A stretch of 64,000 nt of DNA, taken from Sipunculus nudus (lineage: Eukaryota; Annelida; Sipuncula; Golfingiida; Sipunculidae). This document shows positions 2,089 through 44,530 of the stretch, piece by piece. Every line of letters starts with the position of its first letter. Position 1 is the first letter of the stretch. The notes under the pieces were generated by a model. The model made no database searches. It was not told the DNA's origin and saw only the letters and a program-made list of their open reading frames with translations. The position numbers and the translations under genes were made by a program. The DNA lies in NCBI GenBank assembly GCA_026874595.1, contig CM049316.1, positions 12,452,839 to 12,516,838 of the forward strand. Reading direction: 5' to 3'.

Positions 2089-5000
2089 GTAATTCCTGTT
2101 GTTCATAACTGCATCACCAAGTCACTACTGCAAAGATGATAATGAAGTAAACTGTTGAATAGTTCATAATTAAAATATTAGAAATGTGATTGAAAATAAT
2201 CTTATTGATCATATGTCCAGTTTATATATGTGTCATAGATTCACCATTTTTACTGCACCTGCAGCTGCTTTAACATTTAAGGTATGCGAAACAGGAAAAA
2301 AAGTCTTTTTCCGTGGCATATTTTGAAAATATGTCATAAAAATTAGAGGAATCCTATTTCATGAAGTAGTGAGGACCCTCATTCAGTGGTGGTATCGTCA
2401 GAAGTGCAGAAACCCTTCAACATTTTAACTTTGTTCTTTAAACATTGTTTACACAGATTATAACTACCCCTAAGAAAGCCAAGTACGAGCTTCGTAACCG
2501 CACGGTCCTGGTGCCAGGCAGTGAGCAACAGGATGATGAAACATGCGAGGAGGGGATTCCAAAGTTTGATCTGAGCGGAGATGAAGGAATGATCGCGGAG
2601 GAATGTGAACCCAGTGACATGAATGACAAGGCTGCCCTGAGAGTAGAAATAGAACAACTACAAGTAGGTTTTCTTTGTCACAGTGTGTAGCTTAACTATC
2701 TTCAGTATCTTGTTTGGTTAAGCATAGAGTAAAATTAGGCCACAGCGACCTACATTTGGTGAAGTGCTGGATTAAAACAAGATTTTGAGCACCTTAAAGT
2801 CAGACTCTTGGTGTCCATGGATCCTGAGAAACATTTGATATTTTACTAAAACCAAATAATTTGACTAAATTACATATATAAACCTGTGAGAAATTGTGAA
2901 ATATAATTGCAGTCTCTCCATTTTGTGTAAAAAAGCATGCAAATTATTTCTCAATGAAAGCAGGGATTACTGTGGAATTTGTTGTGTATATTGATTTTGG
3001 ATATGCTTATTCATTGCATTTATCATTCACAGATATTTGTGTTTATAGGTTTTGATGATTTGTATTCTAATCTGAACAACAGGGGTTACATGATTTTTCG
3101 TTTCATTTATTTTCTACTCGACTGAAGCTGATCTTGGCCTGATTCCTCAAGTCCTTACCTGTAAGTCCAAGTCTGAGGCCAGTACTGTTGAATCTAAAGT
3201 CTGACTTTATAAAGAAGTGTCACCAATGTGTACCATGCACCCATATGAAGGTTGTGCTTTTACATTGACTGGTTGAACTATGTTTGTTTATGCTAGGAGG
3301 AGGTGTGTGAGCTGCGGGCCCTGCTGGATGCCAAGGAGAGCGAGATCCTGGAAACTGTCCAGCGAATGACCAAGCTGGAGGAGGAGTCCCGTCAGCTGAC
3401 CAAGTACCTAGAGGAGACGAGAGCTACCGCTGTTGATGAAGCCAAGACATCGTCTTCTCTCAGGGATAAACTGGATGAAACCATTAAGGATAAGATCTGT
3501 ATGTATATCAAAACTTCTTTCTTTTATTTTGATAGATTAAATATTTCCATTTTCATTTTTGTCATCTTAACAAAGGCCAAAAAAAAAGAGTGGGTTCTCA
3601 GACACTTTTTCAGAAATCAGTGTGTGAGGGTGATTTTCTTATTTTACTTTTTTTGTATGTTTCAATAAAAATTGTCATAAGATCAGGGAAAAGCATGATG
3701 AAGACATAATTGTTTTGCTAAACAGGTAAAAGCACTATATAACAAAGGAAATCTTATCAAAATTGTGTTACTTTATCTTCTTGAAAGAAATGTATGAGTG
3801 GCTGGAGCTTAAAATTGGCTCACATGTTTCCTTAGAATCCCCTTTTGGCCTAGTCCGCATATTCACCACGATCACCTCACTCAGTGTGCATTACAGCATC
3901 ATTAAATGTGTGTCAAACTGGAAATGGTCAAAATAATTATCCTGGAATTTTAGCAAATTCACCAGGGAAAAAATCTGTTAATCTTATTTTCATGAAGTGC
4001 TGGGGGACCATGGTTAAGGTGTTAACATTGTACTAGCTCATTGTATGATCTACCTTAAACTTTTGTTTTCAGTATTGGAGCATGAAGTTCAGGACCTGAG
4101 GATAGTGAGCACGTCCTTTGAAGATCAGTTTAAAAACCTGCAAAAGAAACAAGAAAGTGAAATGAATGAATTCCGACAGAAGATACATGAACTTGAGGAT
4201 CAGGTAAACTTACACATATAAACTGCATAGTCATTTATCCTTCATTTGTTTATAACTTGCATGTGTGCTAGTCATTAAAGCCACATATTCACTCGCCTTA
4301 TCTGTAGAATTTTAGTGATTTCTGGCTTACTCAGTGGACGTATTCATGAACTGAAGGTACTTCTTGCTAAAAAAGGTTCCTATAATGTCTCTATCCTTAT
4401 CTGTAGAATTTTAGTGATTTCTGGCTTACTCAGTGGACGTATTCATGAACTGAAGGTACTTCTTGCTAAAAAAAGGTTCTTATAATGTCTCTATCCTTAT
4501 CTGTAGAATTTTAGTGATTTCTGGCTTACTCAGTGGACGTATTCATGAACTGAAGGTACTTCTTGCTAAAAAAGGTTCCTATAATGTCTCTGTGACAGAT
4601 GAATAACCTTGTTTATCCTCAGGCTATTAGTAATGGCACATACACCCATGTTGACAAACAGAAAAACTTGATTAATTTTGAATTAGTTCTGTTTATTTAT
4701 TTTTCTAATAATGATTTATCAATATTTTCGTGTCTCTTTTTTTATAAGACCTGGAAATCCACTGATATTCATTTATTGATTTTTGGTGAATAGTTGGGGA
4801 ACAAAACAATAGAAATTGAGAATCAGCAGGAAGAACTAACCAAGCTTTCATATGAGAATGATCTTCTGAAGGTAAGAATGTAATTCTTTCATTTTTATGA
4901 TGTTAAATGCTAGTGTTTATGGTGCAATATATGTCACTGTCAGCATATATGGTTATGAGTCACATTGATCAATGGCCCAGATGATATAAAGTTTATTTGT

Positions 5001-8000
5001 GAAACATAAAATGTGATCCTGTGATGTGTAATTTAGTGTATTTTGAAGTGGGGTATTCTATTTTATACATTTTAATGTCATGAATATAAAATATAGCCAC
5101 ATATTTCCTGTAACAAATAAAGCCAAGAAAGTCAAGTTCAAGATATTCTCCATTTACCATGGCAGGTTATATATAACACCACCAGATGTCAGCAGCTATC
5201 ATTGAAATGCTTCTGGTCAGACTGCACTGTCATATACTTCAGCTTTAGTGTGAAGTGCTTTTGCAAATGTAGAAGACTTTCCCATCTGATTGGATTAGCC
5301 CCTCACCATAGCTTGAGAAAAAAATTAGTGAGGCCTGTCAAAGCTCAGAATTGTGTTTTAACTTGAATCTGTTTTGGGACAAATAAATTATGAATAGCTG
5401 GGAATGTCTTGTTATTAGATTTTTGATACACTGCGAGGTTGTTAACTATTATGGGATGGTGTATACAGGAGGAGAGGTCGAGCTGGGAGGATGAACGAGG
5501 GATGTTAGAACACCAGCTGTCCAGTATAGAAGCCCAGCTGGCGGCCGAGAAAGCAGAACGAGGACGCGTGGTGGCGGACCTGGTGAGCATGACTGCTGAC
5601 CGTGACAGTGCCAGACAAGATAAGGAGCAGTTGATGCTGCAGCTGACAGAGCAAGAGACAGACAAGGTAAGAAATGAAAATTCTTAATGGTATTTGCTGA
5701 AAGGACCATATACAGTGTAAACTCACTTATATAACAGATTTTAGATTGTGTACTTAAGGGTAGAACATAGCCCAGTGGTTAAGGCTTTGACTTCTTATGA
5801 GAAAGTCCCCTCCATTGCTTAAAGGGCAAAAAATGTTATATCAATGCATGTTAGAGTTTTAATGTCTGAAAGACTAGTTATGTCTTTTATATTGCCTCTA
5901 AGACGATGACTTCTCATTTACTTTATTTTAAATTTCAAAGTCTTTTTTATTCCAGCAAGAGAAGCTGGCAGACATGATTGGTGACAGGGACCGTTTGAGA
6001 AGTGAGCTGGAATCTGCAAACAGGAGAGTGAGTGAGCTGGACGCAGAAATAGTGGAAAACCAGAAGAGGATCAAGGAGTTCATACGCCAACAGGAGCAGC
6101 ATGCCAAGGAAATGGCCCTCACTCGGGTACATACCACCTGCATTGTTAAAATTATATAGCTTAATACTGTACATATATTGTATGGCATGGTAGTTGGTTT
6201 CCATATAAACTGTGAGGTTGCTGTATTTTGTCCAACTTTGGTCGTTCTTGATGCTAAGATCCCTGGCCTTGGTCTTCCACAAGGTTTCCCTCTGAGTACT
6301 GGTCATTGGCAGCAAGCAAATGTAAGATAATTCTGTTCCAGTGAATAATCAAAGGAGACTCTGACTTGTGACTCCAGTTTGTTAGTAATTGCAGAATACT
6401 ACATTGTTAATAATTAAAGATGACTCATATACTATATATAAGTCATACTTAAGAATGGAAAATCAGACATTTCACATTTGACCGATTCTGCCTATTTATT
6501 CACCAGGAAATGGTAGCTACTTTAAACACACAAAAAGATCGGCTTTTACTGGCCAATGAAGAGCAGTGGCAGGAAGCAGCAGAGGCTGAGGACCGCCACC
6601 AGGGGGAGGTGTTTGCTCTCCAGGAGCAGCTCCGAGAAAAACAAGAGCAGATTGATGCAGCTCAGGCTCAGATCGAGGAGCAGGTTGCCAGGATAAACCA
6701 GTGTGATGAACAGGTAATATACTGAGGGATTGCTGAGATGTCATATTCTTAATTATTACTATTGTTATTATTTTTATTATTTTAATTAAAAATGTATATT
6801 ATTATTATTATAAAATATTTTTATTTAAGATTTATATTACAGTAAAACCTTGCCTAATGACCACCTTGGTTAAGCAACCACCTCAAAACCACTTTTTAAC
6901 AGACCTGATTCTCTTTCTCTCTTTATATAAGGCTATCCCTTAGGTGTGACCACTTTATCAAGGTCCTGATGGCGGTCGTATTTTGAGGTTTTACCATTTT
7001 TTTATACTCCTGTCATATGACGGGAGTATTATGGTACACCCACTGTTCGTCTGTCTGTTAACTTTTAGGTGTCGCCATGATAAATTACCGGGGCTTTGAT
7101 GGATTATCAATAAACTCACCGTAACTACTTACCAACTGATCATCTGGCCCCAGTTCGAGAATGGGCAACATCCACTTATAAGGTCAAGGGTCACTGGTCT
7201 GCTTTGTGGTGTCGCCATGATAACTTATGCAGAATTCGAAGAATTTTGATCAAACTCATCAGAAATTTTAATCAGTAAAATATCTCGCCTAATTTGGATA
7301 TCCAGCAAAATCCATGCTTATTTAATGAGGTTGGGGGTCACAGCATTTCGGTGGCACCTTGGTGACTTACCAAAAATGCTATAGATTTTCATGAAACTCG
7401 TAATACATATTTTACCAATAGTTTCTCACCTGAATTGCCTTATCATCAAATTCATGCATATTTAATGAAGTCAGAGGTCACCAGATAAATGATAGGCGTA
7501 ATATGCACGTTTTTGGTGCTCTTGTTGTTATTATTATTAAAGAATTTAGATAGTGCCAAATCTGTGTAAAAATGTTAGAGGGTGCTTTGAATAATACTAA
7601 GAAAGTGTAAAATACCAAAAAAACACACAAGATGTTATATAAGTTCTAAAATTGAGAAACCACAAGATATGAAACTAATTATCAGTTAGCACTCAATCCT
7701 AAAACCTCCTCTGAATAAATATGTTTTCAGTTTTGATTTGAAAATTTCAAACCACAGAGTTGAATGTCACAGATTTAAACCTCAAAGCAGGCTTGCCCCC
7801 TGAATTTAAAGAATACAAAAGTTTGCAAGTCTCACCAGGCACCGTACATATATGTGTAAGACGAGTTGTCAGAAAATATATCTTGTTTATAAATTTAGTA
7901 AAATTCTTGTGCGGCAGTAAAGTCAGTAAGTAGTACTGTATACTGCATATATTAATATTTTATCAGTATTTATTTTACTTATCAACTCTTGCAGCTGAAT

Positions 8001-11000
8001 GTGCTGGTTTGTGAAAAGACAGAGTTGGAGACTGAGAATGAATCTTTATATGATGGATCAATGACCGCACAAGCAGCACAGATGGAAGCTGAAAATCTCA
8101 GACAAGAGGCTGAGGTATTGGCCATTCATTGCTTCATTATAATTTACCTGTTTTTCTACTCATTATGTAGAACATATTTGCTCATTATTTTACCACCTTC
8201 ATCATAGGCACTTGGGCCTGCAATTAAGGCCATACATACATAGTAGTGCAGGTATCTGCCTACTTAACTAGTATTAATCCATATTTATTTAATAATTTAC
8301 TACTGTAGTGTTGTTATGTAACATTACCAGTTATCATTTAAAGTACAAACCAAGTAGCAGTTGTTTTAATGTTTGTAAATAATTTGCATATTACCCATTC
8401 TTGCATTAGGACAGGTGGGTGCAACTTCATTTGGTTTGTCCTGGAAAGTTATTTCCATTCGCTGAGTTTACCTACTGCATACACTGGTATAAATTCTGAT
8501 AGATGATGTTGTGGTAGACCCTTTACAAATTTTCATATGTAAAATTCCTCTACATTAAAGGGAAATATTGAAAATGACCCCCCTTAGGACACACTTAGCA
8601 ACATCCCTGAAACTTCAAGACCACAAACAGGCATTTCTGAGGCATGTGCACAGGGGGGCTGCCTGACAACAATTTATTGGCACCAGCAGTTTAATGTAGA
8701 TTGTTAGTGGCAGGGTATCATTGAAAATGTATTCTATTTGTTAAAACTCTGATATTTATCAGACTAACTTCATTTGCAGACTGAATATTCATCAGACTTA
8801 CTGTTTATCAGACTAAATATTCATTAGGCCCACTTAATTTGCAGACCAAGCATTTATTTACTTTAAGACTTACTTTACTTACAGACTAACCTGAAGAAAG
8901 TAGAAGAAGAAAGGTCAGAACTACAGAAGGAGGTATTAAAATGTAGTTTCTTCTTTTTGACTACTTTTTCTTGCCTAAGATTTTAATATTTACACGATGT
9001 ACTCTATCATAAAAATGTAATATACCTGTGTGCAACGTCACTTTAAAGATATTGTTGTTCATGGCATTTTGAACCATTTAAAGGCAAAACAGCAAAGTCT
9101 TCATTGAACATAAAGGTTTTAGTGACAGTCTATGACTTCTGTATTATTCATAACTTCATGCATAAAAAAATGAAATCCAGAAGTTCTTAATATCAACATT
9201 ACTCTTTTAATATATTTACCGATATTCAGTTAAAAAGTCAAATTGCCACCAACAGACCATGGAACTACCTTTAAATTAAATTATATGTATATTTAATTTA
9301 AAAATTAGTCAACATCATCCAGATGTGGATTTTTATACCTGTGTTTCCTGTCCTTTTCTAGTTATCTGTGGTTAAGGAAAAGTTGTCTGACAGTACTCGT
9401 GAGCTAGAGGTAACATCAGCAGCGAACAGTCGACTGAAAGCTGAACAAACCACTCTGCAGCAGCAGCTAAGAGATGCCCAGAGTCAGGAGAAGGATGAGA
9501 GAATTATACAACTTACCTGTGAAAACGAAGCCTTGATTAAAGACCTGGCACAGGTAAGTCCTAGATTCTCTTAAAAATCAAGATTAAGACTAAGATTAAG
9601 ACATTGATGGTGGGCACAGGTATAAGTGCCAATAATTTCCATTTAGTGTTTGGCTAAAGGTTATGTAAGGTTCACAGGCCCTGTATTTCAAGGGTTTGCT
9701 AATGTGTTTATGTGAGCATGGCTGCAATGCAGTATTTGAATATGATTGTTGCCATGGCCTGTGCATGTTATGTTGCGGGGGATGGGGGGGGGGGGGGGTA
9801 CTTGGCTTTGTGTATGAGAAAAAATGTGTCTTGTAAAACAAAAGTGATTATCACCCCTTTCTCCACCTCCATCTCCTGTCCAAAACCTTGTGCTTACTCA
9901 TATGGTCATTTAACATTATATAGAATCTAGACCTAACATTGTTTTCATTATAAGCTGTTGTACGTAGTACAGATTTACGTCATGCGGTCCTGTTGCAGAT
10001 AAAGGATAATCACGAGACAGAGATACAGGAGCTGAGACAGCAGAAGGATCGTCAGGTGGACATGATATCACAGGAGAGCAACAACATGATGGAACAGTGG
10101 GTCGTCGTTCAGACAGATAACACAAAGCTCCAGGTCAGCACTCGTACAGTATTTCCGATGTCAGTAAAACTAGCATATTACGCATTCTTTGGGTCCGTGG
10201 GACTTCACCTGATTTTATGGGCTAAGTTGACATGGGTGGAGTTTATTAGTGTATTTTCTGATAGATGGCGATGCACCCTTCATAAAATATTGTAAAATTG
10301 TGTTAGGACTTGTGGGACAACAATTTAGTGCTGCCACCATCAGTTATGATATAGATAAATAATCAAAATTCATCCATATTTACTTAATATTAATTATATT
10401 TAAGGCCTTTGGTAAAGGTTATGAAATTTATCCATGAACATACATGTATCCTTCTCAAGGTTCACACAGGTCCTTATTAACTATGCAAGTACAAGATTTC
10501 TTCATGGCCATCAAATTGATCTGATTGTATGTGTTTGTAATGTGATGAATATGGTCCTTGAAAGATCCTTAAATTAGTGCTGGAGTTTTTGCCACAAGGG
10601 TTGACCTGGAATAACCTGCCTGAGTTGCCTTAAGATGTTTATAAAAATTTAAAATGGAGGATGGTCCGACGGTGTCAGATAAAACAAAATATATGCAGAG
10701 TGTAGGCCTGTGCTTCATGTATGCAGAGTGTAGGCCTGTGCCTGATATATGCTGAGTGTAGTCATGTGCCTGATATATGCAGAGTGTAGGCCTGTGTCTA
10801 CTGTGCAGAGTGTAGGCCTGTGTCTACTGTGCAGAGTGTAGGCCTGTGTCTACTGTGCAGAGTGTAGGCCTGTGTCTACTGTGCAGAGTGTAGGCCTGTG
10901 TCTACTGTGCAGAGTGTAGGCCTGTGTCTACTGTGCAGAGTGTAAGCCTGTGTCCATACCTTGTTCAAGCAGCGAGCCTATTATTTAAACACATGAGATA

Positions 11001-14000
11001 TACCAAATGCTTTGTTTCAAATTGAGCTGAACATCATTGGCCTCTTTTTGAAGTGTTCCTTTGGTAATCATTTTATTTTTCTGTGAATACTTTTCTTCCA
11101 CATGATGTTACATCATTATCTTTCAGTACTTGTCATTCCATGTTTTATTTTCCTTTAATTATCTTTCAGGAAGAAATCCGGTCTGTGAAAAAAGAGAAAG
11201 AAAGCACTGATAGCAGGTAAAACATGTGGAGTTCTTTTAAACTCATGTGATCATTCTGGAAAAGATTTAAAGGTCATTTGAGTAACACAGCTTTTTGGGG
11301 TTTCACCTGTAAATGACCTGAATGAAATCATTGATAGTTCTTTTAAAAAGCAGGACTGATTTGTACACATGATTTCAGAATTGATATTTTAACAAAATTT
11401 TAATTAAATCTTGCATTTGTCCATAGTTTTTATTAGTCCATCAACCAAAATCTGCTACAGACTTTTCTCTGGAATAATGACATGGCCAAATATAGCAGTT
11501 AGATTCAGATTATTTAATAAAGTCATTAATCAGATTTTAAATATTGTACATCCTTCACATATATTTTTGTATTATGCGATTACAGGTATCCTATGAATAG
11601 AGGTCCCACCAGGTGACATTGATTCCATTGGCTTTAATTGGTTAGATCAAATTATGTGTAATTTTATAGAGATATATGGTATTTATAAAATTCACCATAT
11701 GTGTATAAATCAGAGTGATGGCCCAGTGATAGCGATACAATGACAGTATATTCTGGTGCAGGTTGATCCAGCTTGAGAGCGAGGTAGATCATTGGAAAGA
11801 GGAACTGAGGAGGTCTTTATCAGGCAAGCAGGACCTGGAAAGCAAACTGTCCAGTGCTGAAACGTCCATAAAGGAACTCAAACAGAGGTGGGCTGTAGTT
11901 GTAGTATACTTTAGTAAAATATACTCCATCTGTACACTTGGTTTTATCCTGGTTCATCTTCTACCTTTAATCTGACCCTGGGTTTCCTTCCACACATGAC
12001 CTTAGGCTTGTATTCCTGCAACACTTGATCTTAGGCTGGTATTCTTTCTACACTTAATCTTAGACTGGTATTCCTTCAACACTTAATTGTAGGCTTGTAT
12101 TCCTTCAACACTTAAAGGTGCCTATTCACCTACCTTTTGAAAAAGAATTTATGTGATTTCTTGCTTCCTACGTGTATATATTAATTATCTAAACGTAATT
12201 TTGGGTGTAATAAAATCTTATAACGCCTTCGTGAAGGATTTATGAACTTGTTTATAAACAACATTTTTGTAAACATAGCAATGTTGACAAATGGAAACAA
12301 CATGTAACCTAAGGTGTTAGGTTGCATAAATGCAGAGGGACAGAATGTTCACTTGTTGCAAAAGCCATTTGCACAGCTCTGGCTTATCTGACTTGCTGCC
12401 AGATACTTTTGTTGAATTTGCTTTGATAATTTTGTCGGGTCCCCACATATTATAAACACATTGATAAAAACAAAACAAGCAGCCTGTGTGCGGTAATATC
12501 GACGTTTTCTGGCCTATTTTAATAAAGGCTCAAAGGGATTACCTTTTGTTTATAAAGGTCAAATAGGTGATTCGGCCCCTTTAATCTTAGGGTTTTCCTC
12601 TCTGTACATGTGATCTTAGGCTAGTATTCCTTCTACACTTAATCTTAGTATAGTCTGAGTTTCCTTCACAACATGCCCTTATGCTGGTAATCCGTCTCCA
12701 CTTAATCTTGGGCTGGTACACCTACTACACTTAATGTTAGTCTGATCCTCCAACTACACCTGATCTTTGATTGGGAATCCTACATTTAATCTTAGTCAGG
12801 TACTTCTGCTACACTTAATCCTGGTCTGCTACTCCTACACTTAATCTTAGTCTGGTATTCCTTCTACACCTGACCTTAGTCTGGTATTCTTTCTACACCT
12901 GACCTTAGGCTGGTATTCCTTCTACACCTGACCTTAGGCTGGTATTCCTTCTACACCTGACCTTGGGCTGGTATTCCTTCTACACCTGACCTTAGGCTGG
13001 TATTCCTTCTACACCTGACCTTGGGCTGGTATTCCTTCTACACCTGACCTTAGGCTGGTATTCCTTCTACACCTGACCTTAGGCTGGTATTCCTTCTACA
13101 CCTGACCTTGGGCTGGTATTCCTTCTACACCTGACCTTAGTCTGGTATTCTTTCTACACCTGACCTTAGGCTGGTATTCCTTCTACACCTGACCTTAGGC
13201 TGGTATTCCTTCTACACCTGACCTTGGGCTGGTATTCCTTCTACACCTGACCTTAGGCTGGTATTCCTTCTACACCTGACCTTAGGCTGGTATTCCTTCT
13301 ACACCTGACCTTGGGCTGGTATTCCTTCTACACCTGACCTTAGTCTGGTATTCTTTCTACACCTGACCTTAGGCTGGTATTCCTTCTACACCTGACCTTA
13401 GGCTGGTATTCCTTCTACACCTGACCTTAGGCTGGTATTCCTTCTACACCTGACCTTAGGCTGGTATTCCTTCTACACCTGACCTTAGGCTGGTATTCCT
13501 TCTACACCTGACCTTGGGCTGGTATTCCTTCTACACCTGACCTTAGTCTGGTATTCCTTCTACACCTGACCTTAGGCTGGTATTCCTTCTACACCTGACC
13601 TTAGGCTGGTATTCTTTCTACACCTGACCTTAGGCTGGTATTCCTTCTACACCTGACCTTAGGCTGGTATTCCTTCTACACCTGACCTTAGGCTGGTATT
13701 CCTTCTACACCTGACCTTGGGCTGGTATTCCTTCTACACCTGACCTTAGTCTGGTATTCCTTCTACACCTGACCTTAGGCTGGTATTCCTTCTACACCTG
13801 ACCTTAGGCTGGTATTCTTTCTACACCTGACCTTAGCCTAGTATTCCTTCTACACCTGACCTTAGGCTGGTATTCCTTCTACACCTGACCTTAGGCTGGT
13901 ATTCTTTCTACACCTGACCTTAGCCTAGTATTCCTTCTACACCTGACCTTAGGCTAGTATTCCTTCTACACCTGACCTTAGGCTGGTATTCCTTCTACAC

Positions 14001-17000
14001 CTGACCTTAGGCTGGTATTCCTTCTACACCTGACCTTAGGCTGGTATTCCTTCTACACCTGACCTTAGGCTGGTATTCCTTCTACACCTGACCTTAGGCT
14101 GGTATTCCTTCTACACCTGACCTTAGGCTGGTATTCCTTCTACACCTGACCTTAGGCTGGTATTCCTTCTACACCTGACCTTAGGCTGGTATTCCTTCTA
14201 CACCTGACCTTAGGCTGGTATTCCTTCTACACCTGACCTTAGGCTGGTATTCTTTCTACACCTGACCTAAGGCTGGTATTCCTTCTACACCTGACCTTAG
14301 GCTGGTATTCCTTCTACACCTGACCTTAGGCTGGTATTCCTTCTACACCTGACCTTAGGCTGGTATTCCTTCTACACCTGACCTTAGGCTGGTATTCCTT
14401 CTACACCTGACCTTAGGCTGGTATTCCTTCTACACCTGACCTTAGGCTGGTATTCCTTCTACACCTGACCTTAGGCTGGTATTCCTTCTACACCTGACCT
14501 TAGGCTGGTATTCCTTCTACACTGGGTCTTAGTCTCATACTTCTACACTTGATCTTAGTCTGGTATTCTTCTACACTTGATTCCAGTCTGATTTTCCTTC
14601 TGCACATACAGGTATTCCTTCTAAACTAAACCTATGGCTTATATTCCTTTAACACTTTAATTTGGTATATTAGCTTCACACTTAGTTCATACACCTCCTG
14701 AAATCTTTAAAAGTCTAAATTATTGAAATTTCTGTAAGTCCCTTTTATTAGTTGTGTAATAAAGAGTGGCATGCTGTGAATAGAGGTAATTCCATTTAGG
14801 TAATATATTTGGTGAATAATTTTTACCATATAGAATTTGTAAAAGGTTATATTTTTGGAACTAGAGAGCTCATTTGCTGAAGGACATATCTGTTGGGACA
14901 GATGTGTTTGTTATAATTAATTATATTATGGTGTCAAATATGTTGGTATAACACCACATTTAATTGTAGTTACACCTTTGTTGAATTAAGTTTACTTGGT
15001 GTATTTATTCTGTCAGAATCCTAGAAGTTAGTGGAGTAGGGGAACACTGGAAGAAAGAGCTTGAAAGAGCAATGGAAGCCAAAGCTATGGTTGAAGGAAA
15101 GCTGGCAAAGGCTGACCAGAACAACCAGGAGCTGCGGCGAAGGTCAGCTAAACCACAACACGGGCACATTTATCTGTATCAGTGCAATATTGACGTAAAC
15201 AGTATTTTTCAGATCTATAAAGAGCCCTCTTCCGATTAGGTGCTAAACTAGTAACTATTGCTTGCCTGTAAATTGTGTATAGAAAGGTTTCGAATCTCTG
15301 CCTGCAACTGCCCTGCACCCAATAAGAAAAGAGTCTTACACAGAAATGTTTGCAACCCTGTGATTGATTGTAAGCAAGACATAGATAGACTGGTACACTG
15401 TAGTTTTAGTAACCTAATCACAAGGTTGCAAACAGTTCTGTGTGGGTCTGCTCTGAATTGATCTAATTTCTTACTTTTTATTGTTTCATTTGACAAAATG
15501 TGCAACATTGTAAAGATGAAATCAAGATGATGCCAAATAGGACCTGCTGTTGAGAAAAAGGTCATGTCAGTTGTTATACCAGATTTGGTAATCTTTTATT
15601 GATAAAATATTAACATTTTTGTAAAAGGAGAATCTGTAAATATATTAAATAACCATAATTGCATCATTTACTTGTGTAATATGGTTTTGATTTGAAATTG
15701 GAGGTGAGGAAAATGTTTTAACTGTATTTAATTTACTTTAAACTATCTTGACAAACTCTTATGGCTTTATAGAATGTTTTTCTTGCAATACAGGAAAAAA
15801 GATAATAAATTTTTTTTTTCTGTCAGGGAAGCCAGTTTTCTTTCAGATAATCTCGACATAATTATATACATCAAAATTCAAATAGAATGTTGAAAGAAAT
15901 AAACACTTGGTAAATTTTTCTTAAATCTACTTTGTTACTTTTCTTTTAGAATCTCCATCCTAGATGCTGAGGTCACTAACAGAAAGGAAGATCTTGGGCG
16001 GACACACGTTGTCAAAGAAGAGATGGAAGCTAAAGTTAGCGGCATCAGACAGAAAAACCAAGAGCTAGAAGCCAGGTATCATGATAATGAATTCCGTGAT
16101 ACAGAAAACATGGTGTCACCTGCACTGTTAACTCACTTTCCTAAATCTTCTGTGCCCGTCAGTATAAATTCATATTTTCCATAAATTTTGGTTGGTTTTA
16201 TTTTTGCTCGGATAAAATTTCATTATTCTAACTTTTACCACAGGGCCACCGGATTAAATAGGTGAGGGTGGCAGATTATTAAATATTGGCTTTGGGAGGC
16301 AAAAATAACATACAGATTTGTTTATTGTACCATTAAGTGTATAATACTTTGTCAAGAAATGTCTTCACATTTGTCACGCTTAAAGTTGGTCTTTCAGAAT
16401 AGCCGAGTTTGAAGCCATTCTGATACACAGGAAGGAAGTGATGGAGGCGGCCATGACAGAGAAGGAAGAATTACAAAGTCAGCTCTGTCAACTACAGCAG
16501 TGTAACGAGGAGCTCGTGCAGAGGTGAGACTTCAGGCTGTGTGATCAGTATTCTTCCATCAACTATCCAATAGATGTGTCAAAACAAACGTCTAGCTAGG
16601 AAAGGATGTAATTACTTGAGTCCTCTGTACGATCCATATGTGTCCCTTAATTCCTGTAAATTCCTGGGAAATGACAATATCAAAATGTAGGCCTTGAAGT
16701 AAGTAGAAGCATCCTGGAAAACTGGATAATATTAGAGTTAGCATGCAAATTTTTTCAAATTCAGCCAACCAAAAATGTGAATATCATTCATTCTAATTAT
16801 CAATCATATGTAATAATGAACTGACCCTAACCTTTGGATTAAACCTAATTCTTGCTTATTAAGTGTCATCCTATATTCCTATCTCTTTCATCACATGAGC
16901 CACAATGACCATTTTCTTCTTTAAATTGCATCAATTACCACTATATCATATTATTAATGATTTTGTCCTAGGGACTGCCTCAAAAGTTCAGGAATTGTCA

Positions 17001-34465: not shown

Positions 34466-37400
34466 CTGAAATGTCAAGATAAACATCTAAGCGTAAACAT
34501 ATACACATACATGATACACTGATCACAGATGTGTGTATGGTAGTGTTTAATTAACCACAGTAGCTATGGGCTAATGTACAGTTTAAGTTTGTGTATGGTA
34601 GCATTTTACAAATAAACAAAGCTAACTTTTGTATGGTTGCATTTTACTGACAGACCATGTATGTGTATGGTACAATTTTACTTACAATAGTAGGTGTGAG
34701 CTGATGTATGTTTTTAGAATTGTATGGTAGTGATCAACTGATGACAGCAGCAATGAGCTGATGTACGATTCTACTTTGTGTATGGAAGTAATTTACTAAC
34801 AACAGTAGCTGTGAGTAGATGTTGGTTCTGGTTTGTGTATGGTAGCATTTTATTTACAAAACAGTAACAACTAGAATACAGGCAGTGGACAAGCAACTAA
34901 ATGTTTCTCCCAAATCACAGAGGCATGGGTAAAGTAAGGCATTGAATGTTCCTGATTAAAATCCTCTTATATGTGATATGAGCAATTCTCACCCAAAACA
35001 AAAGCATAGATGAACAACATGCAAAAAACAATTACAGATGGCATCACCAGACTTGCGGAGATGGAGGTATCCAAGATCTATGGACATGAATTAATTCAGG
35101 CCAGTACAGCAAACCACTCCCGAGAAAAGGGTAATAATATATTCTGCAAAACGTGAAGGTAGATGGTACCACCTGTCTGATCTACAAAAACCTTTCCAAA
35201 ATGGATGGACATGCAAAATTTCAGACCAATACATTGAACCAACCACTAAAAAGAACAGATGGCAAATGCATAGATGGACTGGGAGATGGAGGTATCCAAG
35301 ATCTATGGACATGCACCATTTCAGGCAAATACAGCAAATAACTCCTGAGAAAAGGGCATTAATTAATTCTAGGAAAACAGGAAGGTAGGTGGCACCACCT
35401 GTCTGATCTACAAGAAAACTCTCCAAGATGGATGGACATGCCAAATTTCAGACCAATACAATAAAATACTCCTGAGATATGAGCAATAAACACTGAAAGC
35501 AAACAATTCCTGATGGCGCCGCCAGTCTTAAATATCCAAGATAGAGGTATCCAAGATCTATGGACATGCACCATTTCAGGCCAATACAGCAAATAACTCC
35601 TGAGAAAAGGGCATTAATTAATTCTAGGAAAACGGGAAGGTAGGTGGCACTACCTGTCTGATCTACAAGAAAACTCTCCAAGATGGATGGAAATGCCAAA
35701 TTCAGACCAATACAATGAAACACTCCTGAGATATGAGCAATATCCACTGAAAGCAAACAATTCCAGATGGCGCCACCAGTCTTAAATATCCAAGATAGAG
35801 GTATCCAAGATCTATGGATATGCACAATTTCAGCAGAATACACTGAACCAACCACTAAGACAAACAGATGGCAAACACATAGATGGATGCCGCACAATAA
35901 CCATTGTAGGTTTTGCCACTAGTCTTAAGTTCAAGATGGAGATATCCAAGATCTATGGGCATGCAAAATTTCAGCTCAATGCACTGATCCACTCCTGAGA
36001 TATGGGCTTTTGTCTAAAAGATGCCCAAATTCATACTGCACATAAAGGATTGCAGGTGGCACCACAAGTCTTTGTTATGCAAAACTACATAGGTGAACGA
36101 ATTTATGCCGGGTTTTGGAAAGATTGGTATAAGGGTTTAAGAAAAGTTCTCCGCAAACATACACCATGGAGGCATAGGAGGCGACAGAACCTGGTCAAAA
36201 ACATAGTATCTGCAAAACTTTGTTTATATAGGCGGATACAATAAGCTGAGATATGTTTCAAGGTTTTGTAAGGTAGTATTTTACTTACAACAGTAGCTAT
36301 GAGCTGATGTATGGTTCTCTCTCTAATATGACCATCCAGTTTCTGATTGTAGTCAATGGCACTAGCGACCAGTGATGTACCAAACAGGAACATGAATGAT
36401 AAAAAGCTGTAGGCTACAACATTCTGCAACAGATGAACACAATATTCCATCAATATAACCAACACACAGCCATGTTTACAGAAAGGGCAGGGACCAAGCA
36501 AAAAGCTGAAAAAGATATTTCATCTATTTAAACCGGAGCTGCTCCATTAGACTAAATCCATGAAGAGATTATTTTGCAGTCCTGTTAATAATGCCATAAA
36601 TCATGTTATGAGAGGTTTCTTCACACATTTTTCTTGTAAAAGTTTGTAATCAGAGTATCCCAATGTACAAATTTTATATCACATTCAAAATCTTACCAAT
36701 CATCCAGTCAATCTTAGGATCAAACTACCATGTCCAGAGACTATGAATAATAAAAGAAAGAATCTGCAATTATTCTTAAATTCCACAAAACTGAGATTTT
36801 CTATTTTCAATATATTTTTATCATTTTTCAGATAATATGACTGAATAAATTACATTCAGTCGAGTGGCTGTAACCCATTGCTTACATAAATGAATCCTTA
36901 GCTACAGTCCAAAGCCTCAGTGATTTTCTGAATTCATGTTAATAAATCTACCACAATAGTGACAGAAACATCATGACATCAAGTAAATATAAATATTAAG
37001 TACAATAATTGAAGAGTTAGATCACTACACTAAGTAATGATGCCAGCTAGGTCATAGGTCATCAGGTGGTATGTTACCGAACTTGAAACCTGATATATAG
37101 TAGAATCCAGTTATCAGAAATATTAAGAAGAATCAAATTTACCACAACATCAAGTTCATTTAATTTGTTTGGATAAACATGGGAACTTATCCATGTCTTG
37201 GCAATTTGAAAATCACAGGATTTATACAAAAATGCAGATGTTATGTTCAATTCAGATATAAAGGTCTCCGGTCTGGGTTGGCAAAATAGCACATGCTGAG
37301 AATGGTTTTAAATGAAGCCTGTACATCATTGCATTATTTACAGCCATTATATAAATGTAAACATCTTTCTGGTCATTTTCAAGGGAATATTTGGTTCTTA

Positions 37401-39792
37401 TTTTAAAGTAAATTTAAAAGTTTCAAAACATCCAGGTTTATTGTAAACATTTGGTCACATGAAACACTTTCACTTACAATGAATGACCAGCTGATTGGGT
37501 ACATGTGTACTAACAGTGTCACATGACACAACATGAAAATGAGGCTAGTGAGGAATCCAGTGACTGTGGTGAACACAAAAACACGCAGGTGCCAGCTGAG
37601 TGGTAGAGCGAGGTAACCACCTTCCTGAGAGGCTGAGGTGGTCAGGCACACCAATGCCGATGCCGAGAATACCTGCAATATATTAAGGTAAATGAAAACA
37701 GACAGGTGCCAGCTGAGTGGTAGAGCGAGGTAACCACCTTCCTGAGAGGCTGAGGTGGTCTGGCACACCAATGCCGACGCCGAGAATACCTGCAATATAT
37801 TAAGGTAAATGAAAACAGACAGGTGCCAGCTGAGTGGTAGAGCGAGGTAACCACCTTCCTGAGAGGCTGAGGTGGTCAGGCACACCAATGCCGACGCCGA
37901 GAATACCTGCAATATATTAAGGTAAATGAAAACAGACAGGTGCCAGCTGAGTGGTAGAGCGAGGTAACCACCTTCCTGAGAAGCTGAGGTGGTCAGGCAC
38001 ACCAATGCTGACGCTGAGAATACCTGCAATATATTAAGGTAAATGAAAACAGACAGGTGCCAGCTGAGTGGTAGAGCGAGGTAACCACCTTCCTGAGAGG
38101 CTGAGGTGGTCAGGCACACCAATGCCGACGCCGTGAATACCTGCAATATATTAAGGTAAATGAAAACAGACAGGTGCCAGCTGAGTGGTAGAGCGAGGTA
38201 ACCACCTTCCTGAGAGGCTGAGGTGGTCAGGCACACCAATGCTGACGCCGAGAATACCTGCAATATATTAAGGTAAATGAAAACAGACAGGTGCCAGCTG
38301 AGTGGTAGAGCGAGGTAACCACCTTCATGAGAGGCTGAGGTGGTCAGGCACACCAATGCAGACGCCGAGAATACCTGCAATATATTAAGGTAAATGAAAA
38401 CAGACAGGTGCCAGCTGACTGGTAGAGCGAGGTAACCACCTTCCTGAGAGGCTGAGGTGGTCAGGCACACCAATGCTGATGCTGAGAATACCTGCAATAT
38501 ATTAAGGTAAATGAAAACAGACAGGTGCCAGCTGAGTGGTAGAGCAAGGTTACCGACTTCCTGAGGGGTTGAGGTGGTCAGACACACCAATGCCGACGCC
38601 GAGAATACCTGCAATATATTAAGGTAAATGAAAACAGACAAGTGCCAGCTGAGTGGCAGAGCAAGGTTACCGACTTCCTGAGGGGTTGAGGTGGTCAGAC
38701 ATACCTGTGCTGACACTTAGAAAACCTGTAATATATAGAGGTAAACGAAAAAATAGAGGTGCCAGCTGAGTAGTAGAGCAAGGTTACCTCCTTCCTGAGG
38801 GCCAGTGTCAAAGCTGAGAATGTCTGCAATATATAGAGGTTAATAATAACTGAAATCCCTGTCAAGCATAAGATCATCCTTTATTGGGCTAATACAATAA
38901 AAATGTGCTTAAATTAAGATCAATTAAAACAAAATTTTTTAAATTTACAAGGTATATAGACAGAAAGCTGGGTGAGAGGGATAGACAGACAAACATGCAA
39001 TTTTTTTTTATAAGTTCTACAACTTTACAGCAGAGACTGTAAAGTATCTAAGGATAGTACTGTCAGGAAAGAAAATGGCTCACACAAAAACACATATGAA
39101 AGGGCAGAGAACATAACTGGATTCTGGAATAAGAAATATTTATATCACCCTTGTATTAATGTTTGAAGCTTCCTTTAGCAGGGTCAACATTACATTTGCA
39201 TATTCCTGTGTATAATATGAAGTCCTGAAACATGCAACTCTTAAGTGATAGCATTTGAGATAAATTTGCTTTTTGAAAAGGATGGGCTGCTTATCTAAGT
39301 CAAAGTTGCTGAATTGTTAAGAGTTAAATCTCCCATATATTACCGGATAATATATTAACAAATCTTGAAATACTAGAGTGAAACTAAAAAAAAAGTACCA
39401 CATTACTGTTTTCCAATAACCCTACAGATAATCCCATAAAATAAAATAGATATCCAGTATAATACCAATGTATCATCCAGCTCAATTTCAACCAACAGAT
39501 TCTGACTCACCACTTGTAACAGCTGTACAATACCCCTAAATGATAAGAAATACTTCATGTAGCACCAGAGGACAATGACACGCTGATGACTGCGAGGGGA
39601 GTATGGCTTCATACATGGGTGCTGTTCCTCTGCTGTTTGTAAACCACACTGGTCTTTTGGCGGGATGCTGCAGTCATCAGTTGTGCTGATCATCGGCATC
39701 ACCTCGGTAGGTTCCGCATCAGGGATCTCGTCCGCCATCTCGTCACATCCCTGTCCTTGAGCGTGCCTGTCTGTCTGGGACAGGAGGTCCAT
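34331..39792 (-). CDS. MARVEL-domain four-helix membrane protein (MAL/plasmolipin/CMTM type)
   Basis: Coding exons in transcription order: 39792-39511, 37672-37478, 36423-36289, 34465-34331; all junctions are phase 0 with GT-AG; 248 aa. Residues 1-75 are a hydrophilic cytoplasmic N-tail with acidic DEIPDAEPTE. The MARVEL domain follows: FRGIVQLLQVVFSASALVCL (helix 1), a short loop (ASQEGGYLALPLSW), RVFVFTTVTGFLTSLIFMLC (helix 2), NVVAYSFLSFMFLFGTSLVA (helix 3) and LIATVLGYINLLLYSILAFY (helix 4), then a basic C-tail. MARVEL proteins act in cholesterol-rich membrane apposition, vesicle traffic and, for CMTMs, receptor turnover. The subfamily is not resolved. The start ATG (39790-39792) is the first in the exon, whose acceptor is at 39797-39798, so at least one 5' UTR exon lies upstream. 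The second exon's acceptor is tandemly multiplied. Confidence 0.86.
34525..34870 (-). repeat. Degenerate 59-bp array derived from an exon end and its donor
   Basis: About six copies, each starting near GTGTATGGTAGCATTTTA on the plus strand (34529, 34592, 34663, 34722, 34778, 34835). They match 36264-36330, which holds the true exon end and donor of the third coding exon. One copy, near 34680, keeps a perfect GTAAGT on the minus strand. Confidence 0.75.
35040..36090 (-). repeat. About 255-bp tandem repeat, 4 to 5 copies
   Basis: AGGTATCCAAGATCTATGG recurs at about 35066, 35290, 35546 and 35800, with a variant near 35942; units contain GGTGGCACCACCTGTCTGAT and CTCCTGAGATATGAGCAA. GGYGCCACC-type blocks and the general layout recall the 20180-21345 array. 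It separates the 59-bp array from the exon it came from. The open frames at 35091-35897 are by-products. Confidence 0.85.
36289..36423 (-). CDS. MARVEL protein, third coding exon
   Basis: 45 codons: NVVAYSFLSFMFLFGTSLVA (helix 3), then the loop SAIDYNQKLDGHIRERTIHQ and LIATV starting helix 4. Acceptor TTGCAG and donor GTAAGT on the minus strand. Confidence 0.88.
37478..37672 (-). CDS. MARVEL protein, second coding exon (proximal acceptor)
   Basis: 65 codons: VFSASALVCLTTSASQEGGY, then LALPLSWHL and helix 2 RVFVFTTVTGFLTSLIFMLC, ending YPISWSFI before donor GTAAGT. Acceptor TATTGCAG at 37673-37680. Eight more acceptors with intact AG lie upstream at 117-bp steps. Confidence 0.88.
37577..38845 (-). 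repeat. 117-bp tandem repeat spanning an intron-exon boundary, 11 units
   Basis: The motif AGGTGCCAGCTG (one copy AAGTGCC) starts every 117 bp at 37587, 37704, 37821, 37938, 38055, 38172, 38289, 38406, 38523, 38640 and 38757. Read on the minus strand, each unit contains a pyrimidine-rich tract, the acceptor TATTGCAG and the first 29 codons of the exon. Acceptors fall at 37672 + 117k; k = 0 to 8 are intact, k = 9 (38725) is followed at once by an in-frame TAA, and k = 10 (38842) is diverged. The minus frame is open through units 37403-38716 and matches the coding frame. Confidence 0.95.
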
Positions 39793-39796
39793 CTCC
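39511..39796 (-). CDS. MARVEL protein, first coding exon with start codon
   Basis: Exon 39796-39511; ATG at 39792-39790, 94 codons: MDLLSQTDRH at the start, KYFLSFRGIVQLLQV at the end, donor GTGAGT. The RG-x-x-x-L-x-Q motif at the start of helix 1 is typical of MARVEL domains. Confidence 0.85.
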
Positions 39797-41984: not shown

Positions 41985-42545
41985 CATGTAGGGAATTCCA
42001 AATTTAACTGGAGAAGTATTTAAATGAATGTAGACCATAATTTGTAGTTTTCACTAGTGGTAATTTATGATAAGATTTTTGCCGAGTATTGTATGATGTA
42101 GACACTTCTTAGTAATAATTTCGAAGATATACTGGGGAAAGATCATGTTTCATTTTATAGGTTTCAGTTACGATAGTCTTAGGTCTTTGTAGTTCTAGGT
42201 TATCAAAATTGTGTTTATTCAAGAGCTGAGTGTAGTCAGTATTTAAGTCTCCATCAATCAGGCATAGTGCCCGCTTTAAGATGCACTCCATCTTGACTGC
42301 AAGTATCTGTCCACAGAAATGCGAAAGGATGGAGTAATAGTTAAAGTTTGATTGTATAAAAGACCGGACGATAGTAAGTTTAGCATCTCTATCTAGAATG
42401 CGATGTATTCTGTACAAAGCACAAAGTTGCCTTGCAGCCTTTATACAATGTTTATTTACATGAAATTTAAATTTCATATGTTTATCTATGTAAATACCAA
42501 GTAGTTTTACACAAGCTTCACTGTTTAAGGTGGTATTGTTAATGT
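41985..42545 (-). mobile_element. Dead non-LTR retrotransposon, C-terminal reverse-transcriptase fragment
   Basis: The minus-strand frame contains CVKLLGIYIDKHMKFKFHVN, KAARQLCALYRIHRILDRD, SFIQSNFNYYSILSHFCGQ and IVTETYKMKHDLSPVYLRN, the usual order of the thumb/C-terminal part of jockey- or CR1-like reverse transcriptases. It breaks by frameshift near 42109, continues in another frame (TTNYGLHSFKYF) and meets a stop within the final motif, so it is inactive. Confidence 0.72.
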
Positions 42546-44530
42546 TGATACTTAAATTTCACTGGATACCTTAGGTTGAGAAGGAAGCTTACCTGAAATT
42601 TATCAGGAATAGCTTCCATTAAATTGATATGGAACCATTCTATAGCTATCTGACATTCAGAAGTGAGGACTGTATGTTGTCTGCATGCACGTTACTTTTT
42701 TTTATGTCGAAATTTTCCCACTTGATGTCATAGTGTATTCTATGGTCAGAAAATTTTTTAAGAATCGTAAAATCTATCAATATGCAAATTTTATGTCGTA
42801 TTATTAATATTGTTGACATTATTATTATTATTATTATTAAGTTTGTTCACAGATTTCTGCTCCCTGAAGTTTCTGTAGGTGTTAAAGGAAAAAGCACTAT
42901 TATATTTACATCAAACAAAATATTTCATGGGAAAACTAGCAATAATTGTTTAAACTAATGGATAAAAACACATGTGCACTTGCAAAATATTTTTTCTTTC
43001 TAAGTAATCCGATTCCACATATTATGAAGAATTACTAAAATTTGCCGTCGGTAAAGATGCTTGGGTTCTCGCCTATAAAAGGTGTGGTCAGATAATAATA
43101 TTGTCAAGCTACCTTGGTGCAGTCTAACTTTGAAATACATATTTAAATAATTTAAAATTCCAATGACATATATATTTTTTTTTAATTCACAGAATATTCT
43201 CTATTAGATCTGCTATATATAAAAAGCCTATAAATTTTCTTGTTAGTCTGAAGATTTAAAAATTTAAAGCAATTGTTTTTATTTTTACACACACACAAAA
43301 ATGCGATTCATCTCACATCTGGCAGTTAGTAAAAGCATCTAACAATAATATCATTTTAAAATATACACAATTATCTCCAGGTTTTATGTGTTGCTTATCT
43401 ATCATTTTTCCTTCCATTTATATTTTTGTTTTAAAATTCTTGACTAATTAACAAAAGACTCTTTATCTTAAATGGCATGTTACTGCTTTTTAAAATAAGT
43501 TATCGAATAAAGAAAAAATGCATTTTGGATCATATTTTTTTCAACCATTTATTCAAAATTTGAAAGCTTTATGCCTTGTAGCTTGCGAGAAATATCCCCC
43601 TGAAGATGGTGTGATCTACTGAAATAGTGTTTTGAGAAAATGGCCAAAACTGTAATTAGAGTAATTCTGTCCTAGTTGTTTCACTGAACTGTGAATGCAT
43701 GTGACAGCTGTATAACATGAATCTACGTTATTATATATGCATGATTTTGTTCCCGGCCTTTTTTTTTATTGCTCTTTATCCTTTTTTCTGTATAAGTTTG
43801 GTGCCAAATGTCAAGTCGGTAAGTGTCAAATTCAGAAGAAGGCGGAGCTTATGGTCACAGGGCAAAATTACTATATAGGTCACCTGGCCACTCCCGCTGA
43901 CACTACCTAGGGGTCAATAACGCGCCCCGCTTATCAAGATAAGCAGTGCTCAAGCTCAAAAGACTGCTGCTGCAGGTCTTAATCCTATGTGTAAATCCAA
44001 CAATTTAGCTCCATTTGTCAGCCAAGCGGCGTCTTAAGAATACTAGTATGTTCGTTCTCTCAGGGTGAAACATGTGTTTCTGTTTACACCTTACGTCCCC
44101 ACGTACATGGAGTTGACAGGTCAATCAAAATGTAACTTTTTCTGAATGATTAATTATATCACATTTTTGTGACAAGGTGGGTATAAAAATGACATAGTAG
44201 TAATAAATTTTGTGAAAAATTAACACTTAATAATTTTGACGATATTAAGACCGTAACTTGAAAATATAATATATACACCAAACTGTCATTTAATATATGT
44301 AAATACATGTATATAAATACATAAGGATGGCTATATATATCATAGAAAATTTGACCTCTGGCCCTCGAGTCTCGTATGCCAATGTATATATTTTCATTTC
44401 CGAGAATTTTTTTATTTTGTTTTAAATATTTATTATTTTCACTGTTGTTGTACAATTTGGTACACTAAATATGTTGATAAGACAATTAAATTAATATCCA
44501 TCATATATTCATTGATAGCCATATATTGGT
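42546..44530. other. Non-coding AT-rich stretch
   Basis: No credible gene. The part at 43800-44110 is GC-richer than its surroundings and might be regulatory, but no specific motif supports that. Confidence 0.3.

Follow-up and report, generated by a model that had tools for sequence, protein, structure and literature searches.

A MARVEL-domain gene on the minus strand of the Sipunculus nudus window (the whole 64,000-nt stretch of DNA analyzed here) contains about eleven copies of a 117-nt unit that crosses an intron-exon boundary and repeats a 3′ splice acceptor. On balance, the array is probably an intron-exon-boundary minisatellite at which exon definition picks the acceptor nearest to the donor of the true exon (k=0), with leakage to k=1 or k=2 at most.

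The features of the gene, with units counted from k0 at the true exon to k10 beside the intron, are the following; a slash marks a splice junction.

39511..39796, minus strand: upstream exon E1, with a candidate ATG at 39792, ending ...GIVQLLQV, donor GTGAGT at 39510, phase 0.
38824..38860, minus strand: end of the intron ahead of k10 (TTATTATTAACCTCTATATATTGCAG), regarded as the original one.
38726..38823, minus strand: outermost unit k10, 98 nt, with a 19-nt loss, acceptor TATTGCAG before 38823, a broken frame and a possible donor GGAG/GTAACC at 38787.
38609..38725, minus strand: unit k9, with an intact, best-scoring acceptor at 38725, TAA as third codon and a strong cryptic donor CACAG/GTATGT at 38704.
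37673..38608, minus strand: units k1-k8, eight full 117-nt units (88-nt exon copy plus 29-nt intron tail), one frame open throughout.
37478..37672, minus strand: true exon E2 (k=0), 195 nt, 65 codons, encoding the second half of TM1 plus TM2 of MARVEL, donor GTAAGT at 37477.
36289..36423, minus strand: exon E3, which follows E2 and encodes TM3 in 135 nt or 45 codons; its acceptor is TTGCAG and its donor GTAAGT at 36288.

E1, E2 and E3 join in phase 0 into a continuous coding sequence with a 204-residue product. This k=0 join scored 34.9 bits against Pfam MARVEL (PF01284) over profile positions 2-100 of 135 and belongs to the family by its curated cut-off of 32.8, whereas the k=1 join, the only other product compared, lost 12 bits and fell below it (22.5 bits). 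E2 alone reached 15.6 bits, under the cut-off, and E1 alone gave no match. MARVEL-domain proteins have four transmembrane helices; three helix regions were found in the E1+E2+E3 product, and no TM4 exon was recognized in 12000-36200, where three hydrophobic candidates were considered without any being accepted and Pfam gave nothing for four hydrophobic ORFs. The unrecognized TM4 exon, together with the best-scoring k9 acceptor and the stops to which both outer acceptors lead, could be read as the mark of a damaged gene in which splicing goes to intron-proximal k9 or k10 and leaves most transcripts with a premature stop. We regard such damage as highly improbable, given that E1, E2 and E3 are open, share one phase and have canonical GT-AG borders, and that the MARVEL match stays above the cut-off over TM1-TM3. 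Beyond the array and the three exons, tblastn detected no paralogue of the gene in the window below E 0.40, and a PDB sequence search with E1+E2 returned two matches (E 0.24 and 2) that were taken as chance. Elsewhere in the window, plus-strand stretches at 3297-3668, 6453-6725, 9954-10295 and 15903-16184 look like coiled-coil exons of another gene; the first of them, the one compared with Pfam, had two matches, both under their cut-offs. The minus-strand ORF 42109-42558, without a Pfam match, presumably resembles the C-terminal part of a LINE reverse transcriptase.

Tandem Repeats Finder placed the array at 37578-38799 (minus strand) with a period of 117, 10.4 copies, 95% matches and 0% indels. 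It thus consists of head-to-tail copies of one unit, as a minisatellite does, and the eleven 117-bp tandem units reported with their positions in a preliminary description of this locus were confirmed. In transcript direction, the unit opens with 88 nt copied from the start of the exon and closes with a 29-nt intron tail that ends in TATTGCAG; GC content is 28% in the tail versus 59% in the exonic part. For k=0 to 8, the exonic part starts at 37672+117k, and the same 29-nt tail precedes all nine starts, in agreement with the earlier claim that these acceptors are intact; units k0-k8 each begin GCAG/GTATTC. Among the ten exonic 88-nt parts (k0-k9), no two are identical. The tail of k9 differs from the k0-k8 tail and its acceptor is intact (TATTACAG at 38725), while the exonic part of k10 lacks 19 nt, which puts its acceptor at 38823 rather than at the 38842 expected from the 117-nt register. 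Within 38824..38860 lies TATTAAC, which we take to be branch-point-like.

Splice sites were scored with a rough matrix, which discriminates poorly (two accepted donors receive only 1.6-1.9); on it, k9 was the highest of the eleven acceptors at 5.53, k0-k8 scored 3.84 and k10 2.15, and E1 scored 5.8 for its donor and 4.94 for its acceptor. An array as such is ordinary here: merged Tandem Repeats Finder rows gave 21 arrays in the 64-kb window, covering 8370 nt or 13% of its bases. What is unusual is the location of this one and its period, a multiple of three. Other arrays seen in the window include a 29-bp minisatellite of about 65 copies at 12695-14580 and arrays with periods of 20, 26 and 180 bp.

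The minus frame 37403..38716 is open, with 437 aa and no stop, which verifies the open frame previously described from 38716 to the true exon; across units k1-k8 (37673-38608), one of the six frames is open. Acceptors k=0 to 8 lead to exons of 195+117k nt (195 to 1131 nt) that are divisible by three and free of stops, and the proposed addition of k x 39 in-frame residues is arithmetically right over this range. The k9 acceptor leads to a stop at the third codon (TAA), and k10 to a frame change and a stop. These two outer units had been called decayed, which is true of their reading frames but not of their acceptors: both AGs are kept. Nine in-frame products without stops (k=0 to 8) are what would be expected if several of the nine acceptors were used, giving MARVEL proteins lengthened by 0 to about 8 segments of 39 residues, with an altered number of helices and perhaps an altered topology. 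We consider such use of several acceptors rather unlikely.

The open frame is not significant evidence for it. In six simulation runs (16 or 19 exonic changes, three mutation settings each), the chance of no stop was P 0.44-0.69; the exonic part is open because it was copied from a coding exon, and an open frame is expected without selection and is weak evidence by itself. Unique changes numbered 16 in k1-k8 (8 synonymous, 8 non-synonymous) and 24 in k1-k9 (13 synonymous, 9 non-synonymous, 2 stop-making). Simulations of 16 exonic changes gave a mean of 4.7-6.4 synonymous ones, against the 8 observed, and 7 or more with P 0.16-0.47; the idea that the units are under coding selection was rejected on these figures, which give no sign of protein constraint. 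Scanned against Pfam, the 412-residue translation of the array yielded HTHP (20.9, cut-off 25), DUF6704 (19.2, cut-off 27) and PAC4 (10, cut-off 31), all under their cut-offs and taken as repeat-driven chance.

The intron tail is translated within SVFIYLNILQ, ahead of the next exon copy. With the two adjacent, each added unit rebuilds a TM1-like stretch (LNILQVFSASALVCL, from tail plus exon copy, versus IVQLLQVVFSASALVCL), and translated intron makes up 10 of the 39 residues, about a quarter, of each added module. On a crude position-weighted hydrophobicity scale, the best 19-residue window of the added stretch (ILQVFSASALVCLTTSASQ) scored +1.8 and a window nearer the translated tail (LSWHLSVFIYLNILQVFSA) +2.6, compared with +1.3, -0.1 and +0.2 for native TM1, TM2 and TM3. 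The earlier proposal of a membrane-spanning run in every unit, a point in favor of using several acceptors, therefore stands to the extent that the run scores close to native TM1; as a helix it is predicted to be marginal (+1.8 versus +1.3 on this crude scale), and it may or may not span the membrane. Against such use, unit k1 carries an L-to-Q change inside the helix, the first helix of the k=1 product scores +2.9 on the same scale, worse than the native +1.3, and that product is the one that drops under the MARVEL cut-off. Furthermore, exons above about 500 nt are disfavored under exon definition. Of the length and topology switch envisaged in the preliminary description, the in-frame arithmetic survives; an open frame, however, is expected even without selection, the k=1 join lies under the cut-off and the helix is marginal. 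Its other branch, in which splicing always picks one acceptor, is likelier.

We therefore favor the acceptor nearest to the donor. A tandem duplication would first have joined the tail of intron 1 to the start of exon 2 in a MARVEL-domain gene, and the duplicate would then have expanded to a minisatellite via unequal exchange or conversion. Exon definition from the donor at 37477 would mainly use k=0, giving a 195-nt exon, the whole array would leave with the intron, and a normal MARVEL protein would result. Some low-level splicing to k=1 and k=2 may occur, with exons of 312 and 429 nt and insertions of 39 or 78 residues, while the outer units, beyond joining distance of the donor, would be free to decay. 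The preference for k=0 would follow from exon definition at 37477, from which far acceptors would need exons > 500 nt. Moreover, the outer acceptors are usable on paper yet yield stops, and a working gene must therefore largely skip the intron-proximal acceptors. The contrast between the k=0 join, which passes the MARVEL cut-off, and the k=1 join, which fails it, supports this explanation. Classical duplicated-acceptor experiments, however, are reported to have often favored the intron-proximal acceptor, which counts against a k=0 preference.

Divergence along the array also supports the nearest-acceptor explanation. Unit k0 adjoins the remainder of the exon and k10 the intron; exonic parts of k0-k7 differ by a mean of 3.0 per 88 nt, k8 differs from them by 8.75 and k9 by 17.4. 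With an 85% match across 74 nt, k10 is about as close to the inner unit as k9. Units look young close to the exon and old close to the intron, a gradient to be expected if renewal proceeds from the exon end. The residues ASQEGGY are common to the true exon and the inner units, which places the true exon in the homogenized set, whereas k8 and k9 have TPQEVGN. Near-identical units are easily miscounted, and the copy number or the whole array could be an assembly artefact, but we give this hardly any chance: the ten exonic copies k0-k9 are mutually distinct and their divergence is graded along the array, which argues against copies stamped by the assembler without proving the copy number. A transposon origin found no support within the window, where blastn detected no other copy of the unit and a sole match of 12 nt outside the array. 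Pattern searches for relatives elsewhere gave 38 matches in viral contigs and 298 in genome contigs, none of them confirmed, an outcome expected of these viral and prokaryotic collections.

None of the unique changes falls in the 29-nt tail (0 of 16 in k1-k8, P 0.0105; 0 of 24 in k1-k9, P 0.0011; 0.033 and 0.005, respectively, with CpG sites removed). The nine identical tails hint that more than one acceptor may matter, and in this they speak against the nearest-acceptor explanation and for the use of several acceptors (9/9, P 0.001-0.03). Invariance may alternatively come from recent homogenization or from slower mutation in the AT-rich tail; because the tail is AT-richer and the copies are not independent, we treat the statistic as a hint only. 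The inner units had been characterized as homogenized or selected: homogenization fits the divergence pattern, and selection has this one weak hint in its favor (P 0.001-0.03). The array might even act as a splice-encoded ruler, a ladder of variable copy number by which individuals and tissues would differ in the number of helix modules, with odd numbers inverting the downstream topology. The nine invariant tails and the TM1-like segment formed from tail plus exon copy are why we still entertain this very doubtful idea.

Duplication across such a boundary has a precedent. The account in PMC4974935 of the potato RdRp gene PGSC0003DMG402000361 describes one tandem duplication that spanned an intron-exon boundary, after which the upstream acceptor was kept in use and a new intron with a GTAAG donor arose, covered by 106 RNA-seq reads. 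As in that account, the duplicated segment joins the 3′ part of the intron, with branch site, pyrimidine tract and CAG, to the 5′ side of the next exon, and the copy inherits the splice signals. Unlike the potato gene as described there, which underwent one duplication, the MARVEL gene has about ten, is known from DNA alone and has weak in-unit donors except in k9. By analogy, the use of the acceptors of both copies in the potato case (PMC4974935) would go against a simple nearest-to-donor rule.

Given the same kind of duplication as in the PMC4974935 account, the array could represent intron gain in progress, in which an upstream acceptor and an in-unit donor spliced to a later acceptor would create mini-exons and new short introns, as in potato. 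In-unit donors scored 1.99 (AAG/GTGGTT, eight copies in k0-k7), 5.58 (GTATGT, k9) and 2.56 (GTAACC, k10), compared with 1.9 for the real E2 donor, and k10 would give a 36-nt mini-exon that keeps the frame. However, the rough matrix discriminates poorly, the k9 mini-exon carries TAA, and AAG/GTGGTT would give mini-exons of 52 nt, not a multiple of three, in all eight units k0-k7. Because these inner mini-exons break the frame, we rate intron gain lower, as distinctly unlikely. The donor-like CACAG/GTATGT of k9 at 38704 (minus strand) lies 21 nt past the k9 acceptor and nearly equals the E1 donor (5.58 versus 5.8); the resulting 21-nt mini-exon with its TAA is possibly a poison micro-exon.

Other known systems share single aspects of the array. 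According to PMC4526556, which cites Turri et al. 1995, a minisatellite in IFI6/G1P3 (6-16) gives multiple splice donor sites, and the variants are said there to encode different isoforms. Both arrays supply several alternative splice sites; that of IFI6, as summarized in PMC4526556, multiplies donors, and that of the MARVEL gene acceptors. Intron gain in which an exon segment containing AGGT is duplicated (Rogers 1989; Hellsten 2011; as described in PMC4974935) resembles the present case in that units k1-k8 are 117-nt GT...AG segments whose removal keeps the frame. Unlike in that model as described, GTATTC is a poor donor (0.52 on the rough matrix, on which 13% of minus-strand GT score as high). 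An acceptor directly followed by GT also recalls the ratchet points of recursive splicing as presented in PMC8605326, but here the donor regenerated after joining to E1 scores -2.52 on the rough matrix, and a recursive splicing site was rejected on this value.

RNA folding was considered for two units, k1 and k2, whose fold reached -70.8 kcal/mol (z -2.0), a value matched or bettered by 7 of 200 shuffles. In this fold the exonic part forms a hairpin and the tails pair via AATATATT, a palindrome present in all nine identical tails (37673-38608). According to this model, pairing between the tails of separate units could loop entire units out. Units k8 and k9 have two changes, at unit positions 53 and 54, within the stem of this fold.

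In the available accounts cited above, a single boundary-crossing duplication and a minisatellite with several donors (IFI6) are already in print. An array of identical acceptors was absent from the titles and abstract openings of the literature searched, a body that mostly excludes subscription papers. Nine identical in-frame acceptors among eleven constitute a natural experiment on spliceosomal choice between equal 3′ splice sites, and because the exonic copies k0-k9 all differ, cDNA reads could show the chosen acceptor directly. If more than one acceptor is used, the repeat number would set the length of the protein and perhaps its membrane topology.
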